A program made the position numbers and the translations under genes. A model generated the notes under the pieces. The model was given only the letters and a program-made list of their open reading frames with translations. It ran no database searches and was not told the origin of the DNA. Shown piece after piece: positions 32,699-37,794 of a stretch of DNA of 64,000 nucleotides; position 1 is the first letter of the stretch; the number at the start of each line of letters is the position of its first letter. Source of the DNA: Gemmatimonadota bacterium. Its GTDB lineage: Bacteria; Gemmatimonadota; Gemmatimonadetes; Longimicrobiales; Gaopeijiaceae. Where the stretch lies: NCBI GenBank assembly GCA_007121455.1, contig SKKN01000023.1, positions 62,001 through 126,000 of the forward strand. Direction: 5' to 3'.

Positions 32699-34224
32699 GT
32701 TGGGGGCCGCTTCGCACCCGGGACCTCCCCGTCTTCCCCCTCACCCCCGATCCCGTACGGCCCGAAGTCCCGCCCTCCGTGGAGGCGGTGGATCACCAGA
32801 TCGAGCCGACCGGGCCGTATCTCGGGCCGCGGATCGGGCTCGTCACCCTCGGGTGTGACAAGAACACGGTCGACTCGGAGCGGATCATGGCTGCTCTCGT
32901 CGGTCACGGCGCCCAGGTCTCGAGCGAGGTGCAGGGGGCCGACGTCGTCGTGATCAACACCTGCGGCTTCATCGAGGCGGCGAAGGAGCAGTCCGTCGAG
33001 ACGATCCTCGAGGCGTGCTCCCTCAAGGAGGCGGGCGAGGTGAAGGCGGTCGTCGCGGTCGGCTGTCTCGTCCAGCGCTACAAGGAGGATCTCGCAGCCG
33101 AAATCCCCGAGGTGGACCTCTTCATGGGGCTCACGGAAATGCAGGGGCTCGTGCCGGAGCTCCGAACTCGCGGGCTCCTCCCTGCCGAGGCCCAGGCCGT
33201 TCCGAACATGGAGCGGCCCCTCAGGATCCTCTCCACGGATACGTCGCACACCTCCTACCTCAAGGTCAGCGAGGGGTGCGACCACACCTGCGCGTTCTGC
33301 GCGATCCCGCATATGCGGGGCCTTCATCGTTCCCATCCGGTGGAGGAGCTGGTCCGTGAGGCGCGGGAGCTGGAGGCGCGGGGTGTGAAGGAGCTGAACA
33401 TCATTTCGCAGGACACCACCTGGTATGGGCGTGATCTCCAGCGTCAGGTGCGGCGGGTCAATGGCGGGGGTCAGGGCGCCGGACGTGCTCCCCTTCTCCC
33501 CGACCTTCTCGACGCACTCCTGGTTGGAACGGACCTCCCCTGGTACCGCCTCTTCTACATGTATCCGTCGGGGATCACGGAGGAGCTCGTGGCGCTGCTC
33601 GCCGCCTCGGATCGAATTCTCCCCTACCTGGACATGCCGATTCAGCATGGAAGTGACCGCCTCCTTCGCCTGATGCGGAGACCGGAGCGGAAGGAGACGA
33701 TCCGGGAGCGGGTGCGCTGGCTCCGCGACGCGATCCCCGACCTCACGCTCCGGACGACGGTCATTGTGGGCTTCCCAGGGGAAACGGACGATGACTTCCG
33801 GGAGATGCTCGACCTTCTGGAGGAGATCCGGTTCGAGCGGGTCGGCGCGTTCACCTACTCGCTCGAAGAGGATACACGGGCGGCCGAGATGGAGGGGCAT
33901 CTCCCGAACGAGGTCAAGGAGGAGCGACTGGCGGAGCTCATGGAAATCCAGCGGGAGATCTCCTTCGAGGAGAACGAGAAGCAGGTGGGGACGAGGTTTC
34001 AGGCCCTCGTGGACCAGGTCGTGGACGACGAGCCCGACTTTGCGGCGCAGGCACGGATCGTAACCCAGGCGCTGGATGTGGACGGGGTGACGCACCTGCT
34101 CGCACCGGAAGGAGAAGGGGCGGATCAGGGGACGAGGGATCTCGGTTATGTGCCTGGTGACATGGTGGAGGTGGAAATCGTGGAAGCGCTGGATTACGAT
34201 CTGATCGGAAGGGTGGTGCGGTGA
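32695..34224 (+). CDS. rimO: RimO, ribosomal protein S12 methylthiotransferase
   Basis: A radical-SAM enzyme with two Fe-S clusters that adds a methylthio group to an aspartate of S12. In the 509-aa product the auxiliary cluster is held by C54, C90 and C124 ('TLGCDKNTVDSE', 'INTCGFIEAAKEQS') and the radical-SAM cluster by C195, C199 and C202 ('CDHTCAFC'). A TRAM domain forms the C-terminus ('GTRFQALVDQVVDDEP'). 'GFIEAAKEQS' favours RimO over MiaB. The N-terminus has about 45 extra residues because the ATG overlaps lolA as ATGA. Confidence 0.95.
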   Translation: MSWGPLRTRDLPVFPLTPDPVRPEVPPSVEAVDHQIEPTGPYLGPRIGLVTLGCDKNTVDSERIMAALVGHGAQVSSEVQGADVVVINTCGFIEAAKEQSVETILEACSLKEAGEVKAVVAVGCLVQRYKEDLAAEIPEVDLFMGLTEMQGLVPELRTRGLLPAEAQAVPNMERPLRILSTDTSHTSYLKVSEGCDHTCAFCAIPHMRGLHRSHPVEELVREARELEARGVKELNIISQDTTWYGRDLQRQVRRVNGGGQGAGRAPLLPDLLDALLVGTDLPWYRLFYMYPSGITEELVALLAASDRILPYLDMPIQHGSDRLLRLMRRPERKETIRERVRWLRDAIPDLTLRTTVIVGFPGETDDDFREMLDLLEEIRFERVGAFTYSLEEDTRAAEMEGHLPNEVKEERLAELMEIQREISFEENEKQVGTRFQALVDQVVDDEPDFAAQARIVTQALDVDGVTHLLAPEGEGADQGTRDLGYVPGDMVEVEIVEALDYDLIGRVVR

Positions 34225-35489
34225 ATCTCTGGGATCGGGCCCGCACTCTGATGCCCGGGGGAGTCAACTCCCCGGTCCGCTCCTTCGGTGCGGTGGGGGG
34301 GGATCCCTTCTTCGTTCGCCGGGGCGAAGGTCCCTGGATCGAGGATACGGAGGGCCGTCGGTATCTGGATTACGTGCAGAGCTGGGGCCCCTTGATCCTC
34401 GGCCATGCCCACCCGGTCGTGGTCGACGCGGTCGATCGGCAGCTCTCGCTCGGCACGAGCTACGGAGCTCCGACGGAGGGGGGGGTCGAGCTCGCCGAGC
34501 GGCTCGTCCGACTGGTCCCGAGCATGGAGATGGTTCGCCTCGTGAGCTCGGGCACCGAGGCCACGATGACCGCGCTCAGGCTGGCGCGCGCCGCAACCGG
34601 ACGGGATCGCTTCCTCAAGTTCACGGGCTGTTATCACGGCCACGCCGACCCCTTCCTCGTCGCGGCAGGGAGCGGGGTGGCCACCCTGGGCCTTCCGAAT
34701 TCCCCTGGCGTCCCCGAATCTTCCGTCGTGACGACCGCCGTCCTCCCCTTCAACGACCTCGACGCCGTGGAGGGTCTCTTACGGGAGCGCGGGGAGGAGT
34801 TCGCCGCGGTCTTTCTCGAACCCGTGATGGGAAATGCTGGGTTCATCCCGCCGGAGCCCGGCTTCCTCGAGGGACTTCGGGAGGTGACGGAACGGCACGG
34901 CGTCCTGCTCGTCTTCGACGAGGTGATGACAGGATTCCGCGTCGGTCTCGGTGGGGCGCAAGGCCTGTACGGCGTGACCCCGGACCTCACGACCCTCGGA
35001 AAGGTGATCGGAGGGGGCCTTCCGGTGGGCGCGTTCGGGGGACGCCGCGACCTGATGGAACGGATGGCACCCACGGGCCCCGTCTATCAGGCCGGCACGT
35101 TGTCCGGAAATCCGCTCGCGACTGCGGCAGGAAACGCGCAGCTCGCCTGGCTCGAGGAGCATGATCCGTATCCCGGCCTCGAGTCGTACGCCTCGAGGCT
35201 CGTCGAAGGGGTCCTGGAGGCGTTCCGCGACGCCGGGGCGCCCGCGTCGGGCCAGGCGATCGGTTCGATGTGGGGCGTCTTCCTCAGGGAGGGCCCCGTC
35301 CGGTCGTTCGAGGAGGCTTCGGAAGGGGACGCCGAGCGTTTCCGCCGCTTCCACCGAGCCGCGCTCGAGCGGGGGATCTTCTTCGCACCTTCCCCTTTCG
35401 AAGCGGGGTTCGTCTCCGTGGTACATGGCGAGGAAGAGCTGGAGGTCACGTTAAGGGCGGTTCGAGAGGCGACGGCCGCGTCGGCCTGA
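34221..35489 (+). CDS. hemL: Glutamate-1-semialdehyde 2,1-aminomutase
   Basis: HemL converts the HemA product to 5-aminolevulinate, so hemA, hemL and hemB all occur here but in three places. It is a 422-aa fold-type I PLP enzyme: 'MPGGVNSPVRSFGAVGGDP' start, 'SSGTEATMTALRLARAATG', 'VFDEVMTGFR', and the PLP lysine K261 in 'TLGKVIGGGLPVGAFGG'. The GTG start overlaps the rimO stop as GTGA. The usual N-terminal 'S..lf..A' stretch is short, which fits this start. Confidence 0.97.
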   Translation: MNLWDRARTLMPGGVNSPVRSFGAVGGDPFFVRRGEGPWIEDTEGRRYLDYVQSWGPLILGHAHPVVVDAVDRQLSLGTSYGAPTEGGVELAERLVRLVPSMEMVRLVSSGTEATMTALRLARAATGRDRFLKFTGCYHGHADPFLVAAGSGVATLGLPNSPGVPESSVVTTAVLPFNDLDAVEGLLRERGEEFAAVFLEPVMGNAGFIPPEPGFLEGLREVTERHGVLLVFDEVMTGFRVGLGGAQGLYGVTPDLTTLGKVIGGGLPVGAFGGRRDLMERMAPTGPVYQAGTLSGNPLATAAGNAQLAWLEEHDPYPGLESYASRLVEGVLEAFRDAGAPASGQAIGSMWGVFLREGPVRSFEEASEGDAERFRRFHRAALERGIFFAPSPFEAGFVSVVHGEEELEVTLRAVREATAASA

Positions 35490-35518: not shown

Positions 35519-36232
35519 ATGACGAGGTATTCCAGCCGGGTTCCGGCGTGGAGGGGCGTTCGGGCTGGAGCGATGACGCTCCGGGTGGCGCTCGCTGCCC
35601 TCCTGTTCGCGGCCGTGCCCGATCACGGAAGTGCCCAGGGTCTCGCGGATTTCGACTACGAGAATCTTTCGTTCCGAGGCATCGCCGCCGAGTGGGGCTA
35701 CATCTTCCCGGACCGGGTCGAGAGCACCTCCTCCCTCAGCGCCCGGATGGACCTCGGCTTCCTGGGGCCCGGCGTGAGGGTCGTGACCGGTGTCACCCAC
35801 TGGTCGTCCTTTCTCGTCGCCGATGAGGTGGGGCGGCTCGAACGGCGGGTGGAGGAACTCGTGCTGGAGCGGTCGGGTGAGGTCGTCGAGATCGATCTGG
35901 GACAGATCGAGTGGCGGGACCTCGCCCTCCACGCCGACGCGCACATGATGTGGCAGGTCCCCTTCGGGATGCTCACCTTCGCCGGGCTCGGAATCTCGGC
36001 GCACCTGATGCAGGGGAGTGGGAGGGCGATCGACGATACCTTCGTCGAGGACCTGCTCGATTCCGTCCGCGCCGGCATCAACGCGCACGCCGGTGTCGAG
36101 GTCCCGCTCCACCGACGCTTTCGCCTCCTCGGACAGGGCCGGGTCGAGATGCTCGAGGATCTCCGGTACCTCGAGCTTCGCCTGGGCGGTCAGTTCATGT
36201 TCCGGGGCTGGCTGCCCGGAGAAGGCGACTGA
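35519..36232 (+). CDS. Exported beta-rich protein of unknown function
   Basis: A 237-aa protein with a GGAGGGAGAGG site just before ATG 35519 and a signal peptide ending 'GSAQ'. The mature part alternates polar and hydrophobic residues ('SLSARMDLGFLGPGVRVVTG', 'MLTFAGLGISAHLMQGSG') and ends in strand-like segments, as in small outer-membrane barrels. No family recognised. A second start at 35573 would give a shorter signal peptide. It is followed directly by lnt, whose start appears to overlap its stop. Confidence 0.72.
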   Translation: MTRYSSRVPAWRGVRAGAMTLRVALAALLFAAVPDHGSAQGLADFDYENLSFRGIAAEWGYIFPDRVESTSSLSARMDLGFLGPGVRVVTGVTHWSSFLVADEVGRLERRVEELVLERSGEVVEIDLGQIEWRDLALHADAHMMWQVPFGMLTFAGLGISAHLMQGSGRAIDDTFVEDLLDSVRAGINAHAGVEVPLHRRFRLLGQGRVEMLEDLRYLELRLGGQFMFRGWLPGEGD

Positions 36233-37794
36233 GTCGGGGTTTCGTCCCGGGACCGGGAGAACGGGCGGCACCCATCTGCTCGGCCCTTCTCCTCGTCGTC
36301 GCACAGCCGCCCTTCCACCTTCTCGTGCCCCCGTTCGTCGCCCTCGTCCCCTGGGCGACCTGGACGACGGGCCTCTCACCCGATCGGGCCGGCGGTTGGA
36401 GCGCGATACGGGGAGGGCTCCTCCTCGGGTTCGTCCACCACGCGCTCGTCCTCCACTGGATGCCGGGCAGCCTCTTCTGGTTCACCTCACTCGCGCCTCT
36501 CGGGTATCTCGCTCTGGTCGGGCTCCTGGCAGCGCTCTCCGGTGTTGCCGCCTGGGTCCTCCACCTGCTGGTCGTGCGAAGGGAAGCGCCGCTGTGGCTT
36601 ACGCTCCCGGCGGTCTGGACGGTGCTGGAGTGGCTTCCCTCGCTCGCGGGGCCCCTGGCCTTTCCCTGGCTGGGGCTCGGCACCTCGCTCACAGGCTTTC
36701 CGGAACTGCTCGCCCCGGCGGAAGTGGGCGGGATTCTCGCAGTCACCTTCTGGGTCTCCCTCGTGAATGGTGTCATGGCCGACGGGATCCGTTCATCGGG
36801 CCTCCTTGTCCATGGTCCGGTGCGAGCCGTGCATGCCAGCGGCCTCCGGCGGTGGGCGCCTCTGATGGGCCTCCCCTTCGTGCTCGGCATTCCCGCCGCG
36901 TGGGGGATTCATCGAGCGGCCGGGCTGGACCTCGAGCCGGGCGCCCGCATCGCAGCGCTGCACCTCCCCATGCCGGCGGAGCCCCTCGACCGGCATGCAA
37001 GAGCACGGGAGGCGATGGCCCACGGGAATCGACTCCTCGAGGGCCTCGAACCGGGCTCCGTCGACTTGATCGTGTGGCCGGAAGCGAGCGTTCCCCTCGC
37101 GCTCGACGGCGCCGAGGGCGCTCCCTTTTTCGAGGAGCTGTCCCGCCACGCCGCTCGGCTCGACGCGACCCTGCTCGTGGGAGCGTACCTCGAGGAAGGT
37201 GCGGCTCGAAATGCCCTCATCTTCATCGGACCCGACGGGGAGGTCGACCACGCGTACGCCAAGCGGCGACTCGTCCCCGGTGTGGAAGGGCGATTTCAAG
37301 CCGGCCGGCAACCGGAAGTGAAGGAATCCCACGGTCTCCTCGTGGGAGGGCTCGTCTGCTGGGACGTCGCCTTCGGAGGTCTCGCGCGTGAGGCTCGACT
37401 CGCGGGTGCCCGCCTGCTGGCGAACGGCTCGAACGATTCCTTCCTCGAGTTCCCTGAAGCAGGAAGCTGGACGGGCTGGGCCGCACGCCGGCAGCATGAG
37501 GCGCACCTGATCGTGCGGGCCGTGGAGACCCGCATGGGGGCGGTTCGTGCCGCTACCGCCGGGGGCACCTTCCTCGTGGATCCGGTGGGGCGCGTCACCG
37601 ACCGGGCGATGGGGCCGGGGGCTGCCCTGGTCGTGGGAGAGGTCACCACGACCGCGACACACTCGCCGTACGTCCGGGTAGGAATCGGAGGAGGCGGCCC
37701 GGCGATCATTCTCCTCCTCCTCCTGGGGTGGGGAGCGGGTGGCAAGCGAAAGGTTCACAGGAACGGAGGGAGAGATGGCGACCACAATGGATGA
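36229..37794 (+). CDS. lnt: Apolipoprotein N-acyltransferase, apparent CTG start
   Basis: Lnt adds the third acyl chain to lipoproteins in the inner membrane. The 521-aa protein has several N-terminal membrane helices ('LLLVVAQPPFHLLVPPFVAL' first), then a nitrilase domain with the triad E285 ('VWPEASVP'), K345 ('YAKRRLVPG') and C377. The residues after the cysteine are Trp-Asp ('VCWDVAF') where Lnt normally has Tyr-Glu. No ATG, GTG or TTG precedes the first helix. CTG 36229 overlaps the previous stop as CTGA and follows GGAGAAGG, so it is the likely start. The C-terminus has one more membrane helix. Confidence 0.87.
   Translation: MSRGFVPGPGERAAPICSALLLVVAQPPFHLLVPPFVALVPWATWTTGLSPDRAGGWSAIRGGLLLGFVHHALVLHWMPGSLFWFTSLAPLGYLALVGLLAALSGVAAWVLHLLVVRREAPLWLTLPAVWTVLEWLPSLAGPLAFPWLGLGTSLTGFPELLAPAEVGGILAVTFWVSLVNGVMADGIRSSGLLVHGPVRAVHASGLRRWAPLMGLPFVLGIPAAWGIHRAAGLDLEPGARIAALHLPMPAEPLDRHARAREAMAHGNRLLEGLEPGSVDLIVWPEASVPLALDGAEGAPFFEELSRHAARLDATLLVGAYLEEGAARNALIFIGPDGEVDHAYAKRRLVPGVEGRFQAGRQPEVKESHGLLVGGLVCWDVAFGGLAREARLAGARLLANGSNDSFLEFPEAGSWTGWAARRQHEAHLIVRAVETRMGAVRAATAGGTFLVDPVGRVTDRAMGPGAALVVGEVTTTATHSPYVRVGIGGGGPAIILLLLLGWGAGGKRKVHRNGGRDGDHNG

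Follow-up and report, generated by a model that had tools for sequence, protein, structure and literature searches.

Where does translation of the gene for apolipoprotein N-acyltransferase (lnt) begin in this stretch of Gemmatimonadota DNA? The window, by which we mean the whole 64,000-nt stretch analysed, comes from an uncultured bacterium with a genome of 3.53 Mb in 80 contigs, and its lnt frame has no ATG, GTG or TTG near the junction with the preceding gene. We favor a reading, to which we give a probability of roughly 0.83 from sequence comparison, in which Lnt begins at CUG 36229 by termination-reinitiation at the overlapping UGA of the preceding gene, assisted by GGAGAAGG, with the poor codon probably limiting Lnt.

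The lnt gene and its junction with the preceding gene

The encoded protein belongs to the Lnt family, with 163.6 bits against the TIGR00546 profile (cut-off 132.9) and both expected Pfam domains, LNT_N (PF20154, residues 18–181) and CN_hydrolase (PF00795, residues 263–463). E285, K345 and C377, which we take to be the Glu-Lys-Cys catalytic residues, are invariant in an alignment of 20 Lnt sequences, and C377 aligns with a cysteine of PDB 5n6m. Purifying selection on Lnt is evident in the locus pairs L047/L057 (dN 0.18, dS 0.87; dN/dS ~0.2) and L001/L002 (dN 0.45, dS 1.38; dN/dS ~0.3). Within residues about 244–384 (36958–37380), the window protein reads VCWDVAF and LHLPMPAEP where most other Lnt proteins have ICYES and VQPNIPE, and a CWE in the catalytic-site context is common to its two nearest relatives; it is possibly a divergent Lnt subfamily.

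On the forward strand, hemL (34221–35489) is followed by a gene for which we found no Pfam or NCBIfam match over the cut-off, then by lnt and a ferritin-like gene (Table 1). The C-terminus encoded by the unmatched gene is conserved in the two nearest relatives (G001 and G015), and a similar gene end also lies 5' of lnt in G001, G015, G020, G022 and G058. At the other end, the ferritin-like gene has its ATG at 37775, after GGAGGGAGAG, and overlaps lnt by 20 nt (37775–37794), so that lnt is apparently flanked by two overlapping neighbors.

Table 1. Features at the lnt junction of the window (positions in the window).
Feature	Position	Strand	Remarks
Upstream gene	35519..36232	+	ATG 35519, TGA 36230–36232
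Shine-Dalgarno-like GGAGAAGG	36218..36225	+	Read from the sequence; precedes CTG 36229
CTGA	36229..36232	+	Proposed CUG start 36229–36231 overlapping the upstream gene's TGA 36230–36232
lnt, apolipoprotein N-acyltransferase	36229..37794	+	521 codons from CTG; TIGR00546, PF20154, PF00795
GER motif, Lnt residues 10–12 from CTG	36256..36264	+	R12 near-invariant across 20 Lnt sequences; precedes any ordinary start codon
Invariant PP, Lnt residues 27–28 (P27–P28)	36307..36312	+	Anchor for junction comparison
GTG, next ordinary in-frame start downstream	36325..36327	+	Codon 33 from CTG; within the first membrane segment

The two genes form a −4 overlap, in which the proposed start and the upstream stop, on one strand, have two bases in common. 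The CTGA and the GGAGAAGG ahead of it, as reported in the earlier note, are read directly in the sequence, and the resemblance that the note saw to ATGA, GTGA and TTGA junctions elsewhere is borne out by a home-made gene finder, which over 214 kb of the same contig placed a canonical NTGA at the stop in 59 of 135 junctions between genes on one strand. The window pair differs from these in that its codon is CTG, with no ordinary start in frame nearby. From 35881 the Lnt frame is uninterrupted, and its only nearby ATG, GTG or TTG codons are GTG 35911, GTG 35950 and GTG 36325. None lies in frame between the latter two, as had been claimed for the region ahead of the first Lnt helix, and the placement of that helix about 15 codons past the previous stop agrees with an LNT_N match that begins at residue 18 counted from CTG.

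Each of the ordinary codons could in principle serve as the start. Initiation at GTG 35950 or 35911, the closest such codons upstream, would make Lnt overlap the previous gene by some 280–320 nt. GTG 35950 lies deep within that gene, the upstream in-frame extension of Lnt scores as non-coding (−0.26 per codon, versus +0.35 in the frame of the upstream gene itself), and an in-frame stop 55 nt 5' of the junction in G015 removes the possibility there; we consider this start highly improbable. A start at GTG 36325, the first ordinary codon downstream, would cost the protein most of its first membrane segment and is most unlikely: both R12 and the invariant P27–P28 lie 5' of it, codons ahead of the in-frame GTG of L047 and L057 show synonymous change, and the start-to-PP distance fits the overlap instead (median 26 codons at noncanonical junctions, n = 12, and 25 at canonical ones, n = 66). 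Finally, initiation might occur at some other near-cognate codon, such as the in-frame CTG 36208, 21 nt 5' of CTG 36229 and inside the previous gene. A CTG at this position is present in L001, L002 and L003, but it is probably explained by a conserved tryptophan codon of the upstream protein; it precedes GGAGAAGG and would have little Shine-Dalgarno of its own, and relatives' ordinary starts sit at the overlap, which together make such a start very unlikely.

The overlap in relatives

A first search gave an Lnt match in 37 of the 58 genomes of relatives. The two closest Lnt proteins found, in G001 (53% identity) and G015 (49%), come from other genera. In both genomes an identical in-frame CTGA lies behind the same upstream gene, and ordinary starts are absent from the junction region up to the first membrane segment; in G015, none occurs from the in-frame stop to the PP anchor. 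This recurrence in the same place and frame is more than chance would give. G050 also has CTGA, behind a different upstream gene that, from its C-terminal motif, is presumably oxidoreductase-like. The three comparators were matched to SKZC01000428.1, SKSR01000122.1 and SLCC01000116.1, respectively, all with the CSSed isolate prefix, and that they share one project prefix counts against the CUG-start reading.

For a wider view, an alignment of 20 Lnt proteins was searched against 154 genomes at the order level, of which 138 matched. We pooled 179 loci: 30 from the first search, 30 from the order search, 40 more junction stretches from the remaining listed places, and 79 from a named collection, in which a scan with a single Lnt protein gave no match and the alignment query did. 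Removal of 47 duplicates and of three loci (for want of an N-terminal match or an upstream stop, or for a short upstream frame) left 129 distinct junctions of Gemmatimonadota.

The upstream stop is in the −4 frame at 101 of the 129 junctions. An ordinary start lies exactly at the overlap in 66 of these (45 GTGA, 14 TTGA and 7 ATGA) and elsewhere in 23, and 12 have none (6 ATAG, 4 CTGA, 1 ATAA and 1 GTAG). The stop falls in a different frame at the remaining 28 junctions, of which 26 have an ordinary start and 2 lack one. Altogether, 14 of the 129 lack an ordinary start; the overlap is retained in 13 of them, with CTG in 4, ATA in 8 (ATAG or ATAA) and GTA in 1. Among junctions lacking an ordinary start, a codon that differs from AUG by a single base is found as CTG in 4/129 and as ATA in 8/129; GTA differs by two. 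Six of the 14 (L003, L021, L051, L055, L058 and L063) retain the overlap and are devoid of ordinary starts all the way from an in-frame stop to PP. The thirteenth case, L051, has a broken upstream frame, and its junction was read by eye and by script as ATAG. In L067 (G127), which also lacks an ordinary start, the upstream gene ends in CCATGA with the ATG in a non-Lnt frame, which may be a single-base assembly indel.

These junctions support the earlier note's proposal that Lnt starts at CTG, coupled to the stop. Close relatives with ATG or GTG at another position would have spoken against it; the two nearest instead keep in-frame CTGA, and the 66 canonical junctions place GTG, TTG or ATG at the same overlap. 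The codon itself varies across the group, with ATA as well as CTG, which the note missed, and the case is broader for it. Seven further ATAG or ATAA junctions (L016, L018, L030, L039, L050, L052 and L062) have a reachable ordinary start, so ATA is unneeded there and they were not counted as noncanonical. In two of these, L050 and L052 (G136 and G137), the upstream stop reads ATAG, and CTG AAG occupies the site at which relatives begin with GTG AAG or TTG AAG; L052 could be one more noncanonical start, a CTG without the overlap.

Two alternatives treat the missing start codon differently. An assembly error or a decaying gene would fit relatives that are nearly all metagenome assemblies (their record titles are mostly Gemmatimonadetes or Gemmatimonadota, with some Longimicrobiales or Gemmatimonadales), and the upstream ORF of G131 and the frame of L067 do look broken. 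However, CTGA is identical in three species, ATAG occurs in several separate projects, the frames stay open for >500 codons with dN/dS of about 0.2–0.3, and none of 20 aligned sequences departs from the catalytic E, K and C; we therefore find this explanation highly doubtful. The second alternative dispenses with a start codon altogether: a one-base slip at the stop would fuse the upstream protein to Lnt. The overlap frame is compatible with a −1 slip at the stop, but the junction has no slippery run, the upstream genes vary between genomes, ordinary start codons occupy the same spot in sister genomes, and a slip predicts a free base before TAG or TAA, whereas A is found there in 14 of 19 junctions. 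A fusion is thus extremely improbable.

Codon evolution, Shine-Dalgarno pairing and a candidate mechanism

The same count of A before TAG or TAA bears on the history of the codon. Among lnt junctions in the −4 frame it is 14/19, versus 12/83 at other gene ends in five sampled genomes (Fisher 9e-7, in a comparison where related rows inflate such counts); the sampled genomes make little use of codons ending in A, TTA and CTA among them. The A may reflect descent from ATGA by a change of TGA to TAG that left both proteins unchanged. Sister junctions (support 99) have GTGA in L013 and CTGA in L014 at the same place, and GTG AAG GCG CTG of L012 aligns with ATA AGG GCG CTG of L048. On a quick tree of the 96 of 129 Lnt proteins with at least 250 residues, L001, L002 and L003, all with CTG, group together with full support. 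The noncanonical state requires at least 8 changes, or 5 when only junctions starting at the overlap are compared, in parsimony counts that do not distinguish gain from loss and that score L067 with the canonical rows. The best reading of these sequences is that CUG and AUA starts at lnt have been conserved or have re-evolved several times. One base would restore an ordinary start without altering either protein, via a silent change in the last upstream codon in the CTG cases and via UAG to UGA in the ATAG cases, which suggests that the weak codon has been at least tolerated long-term, and perhaps kept.

Noncanonical junctions also tend to have stronger Shine-Dalgarno pairing. With duplex energies computed against a standard 16S tail, the median is −10.9 kcal/mol at noncanonical junctions (n = 12) versus −5.65 at canonical ones (n = 66; p 7e-6). 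Pairing is likewise stronger at noncanonical junctions in the order set only (13 versus 26, p 9e-5), and in independent pairs the difference runs 4 to 0 of 5 in the same direction, which with so few pairs is not significant (p 0.125). The GGAGAAGG of the window, at −6.6 kcal/mol, pairs most weakly of the 12 noncanonical junctions.

These observations are consistent with a model in which ribosomes would end the upstream gene at UGA 36230–36232, be held there by GGAGAAGG, step back and use initiator tRNA to restart on the overlapping CUG; the N-terminus of Lnt would then probably be formyl-methionine. Because the stop codon and the Shine-Dalgarno would together position the ribosome on the start, a poor codon could work, and in this part of the Gemmatimonadota the position of the start would be kept while its codon wanders among GTG, TTG, ATG, CTG and ATA. 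The overlap would tie Lnt to its upstream neighbor, and the poor codon would probably keep Lnt scarce, at a fixed ratio to that neighbor. What we infer beyond the plain lack of ordinary starts, the conserved overlap and the coding conservation is the reinitiation itself, the N-terminal Met, the low output and a benefit from it. A more general form of the model is tentative, somewhat short of even odds: reinitiation would free the start codon from likeness to AUG, making AUAG, AUAA and CUGA working overlaps, and selection would keep lnt weak for a low Lnt-to-neighbor ratio.

We considered whether such starts are a genome-wide habit. The home-made gene finder, run over 214 kb of the window contig and over stretches of G129 (54 kb), G131 (96 kb), G116 (40 kb) and G102 (28 kb), turned up no other clear example, in a survey of little power in that the codon signal places starts poorly and lnt itself was scored with a distant GTG. 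Its other rows without an ordinary start were three in G000 (the window's genome), two in G131 and one in G116. A second CTGA candidate on the window contig (C28:22828) was set aside, with GTG and ATG 89 and 92 nt further on, before a glycosyltransferase-like start. ATAG or ATAA junctions other than lnt were listed in G131 only, three in number, and an ordinary start lay no more than 75 nt away from each. An odd initiator tRNA was also rejected: the stem-loop GGGCTCATAACCC, at which ARAGORN places a tRNA-Met(CAU), is unchanged in G000, G102, G116, G129, G004 and G024, and an exact match was missing from the other four of the ten genomes searched (G001, G015, G131 and G050). Nor does TATAG seem to be a promoter −10 element, since the ATA has no preceding T in L020, L030 and L058 and a promoter would leave the reading frame unexplained.

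Relation to known systems

Gene finders and overlap surveys commonly accept only ATG, GTG and TTG, so that genes of this kind would be shortened or lost in annotation. In the open-access literature searched, we did not find a description of CTG or ATA as the start of lnt, or of bacterial AUAG, AUAA or CUGA stop-start overlaps. The sister junctions (GTGA/CTGA and GTG/ATA) offer a natural test of how far placement at a stop codon can stand in for the identity of a start codon, and also of whether weak starts set protein ratios within operons.

Noncanonical starts and NTGA coupling are each already known. Overlapping pairs at −4 nt (NTGA) with termination-reinitiation have been described (PMC10666635, PMC12548453), with both reinitiation and RNA-unfolding models discussed (PMC12548453). 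The lnt junctions resemble them, as far as the cited sections of these reports go, in the four-base overlap of stop and start, the shared strand and the Shine-Dalgarno before the stop. The known pairs in those sections are ATGA/GTGA or NTGA, with all starts ending in G (PMC10666635), whereas lnt has CTGA without an ordinary start, ATAG and ATAA.

Near-cognate starts with reduced output provide a second parallel. CUG is cited as making up 0.024% of bacterial starts and working at 0.86% of the efficiency of AUG (PMC11497404), and in Staphylococcus aureus, where infC, ccpN and citZ have AUA start codons, AUA and AUU starts reach ~10% of AUG, with ccpN AUA up to 30% in rich medium (PMC13009471). 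By analogy, low Lnt output is likely. The S. aureus genes resemble lnt in a near-cognate start; their extended Shine-Dalgarno has a counterpart in the median pairing of the noncanonical lnt junctions more than in the −6.6 kcal/mol of the window, and their output is lowered to about 10–30% of AUG, as that of lnt probably is. They are other genes in another phylum, the cited part of the report describes no overlap with an upstream stop, and their starts were mapped by experiment, whereas that of lnt is proposed from sequence (PMC13009471). In Listeria monocytogenes, mutation of the rsbW start from ATG to ATA or ATT likewise places an ATA start within an overlapping operon and reduces translation, but these, as reported there, are mutants selected in the laboratory, and their overlap is 17 bp, whereas at lnt the state is conserved and lies at the stop codon itself (PMC13068326). 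Rare CUG starts elsewhere are read by initiator tRNA, in the account we cite (PMC11497404); the putative CUG start of lnt differs in being conserved between genera and joined to a stop overlap.
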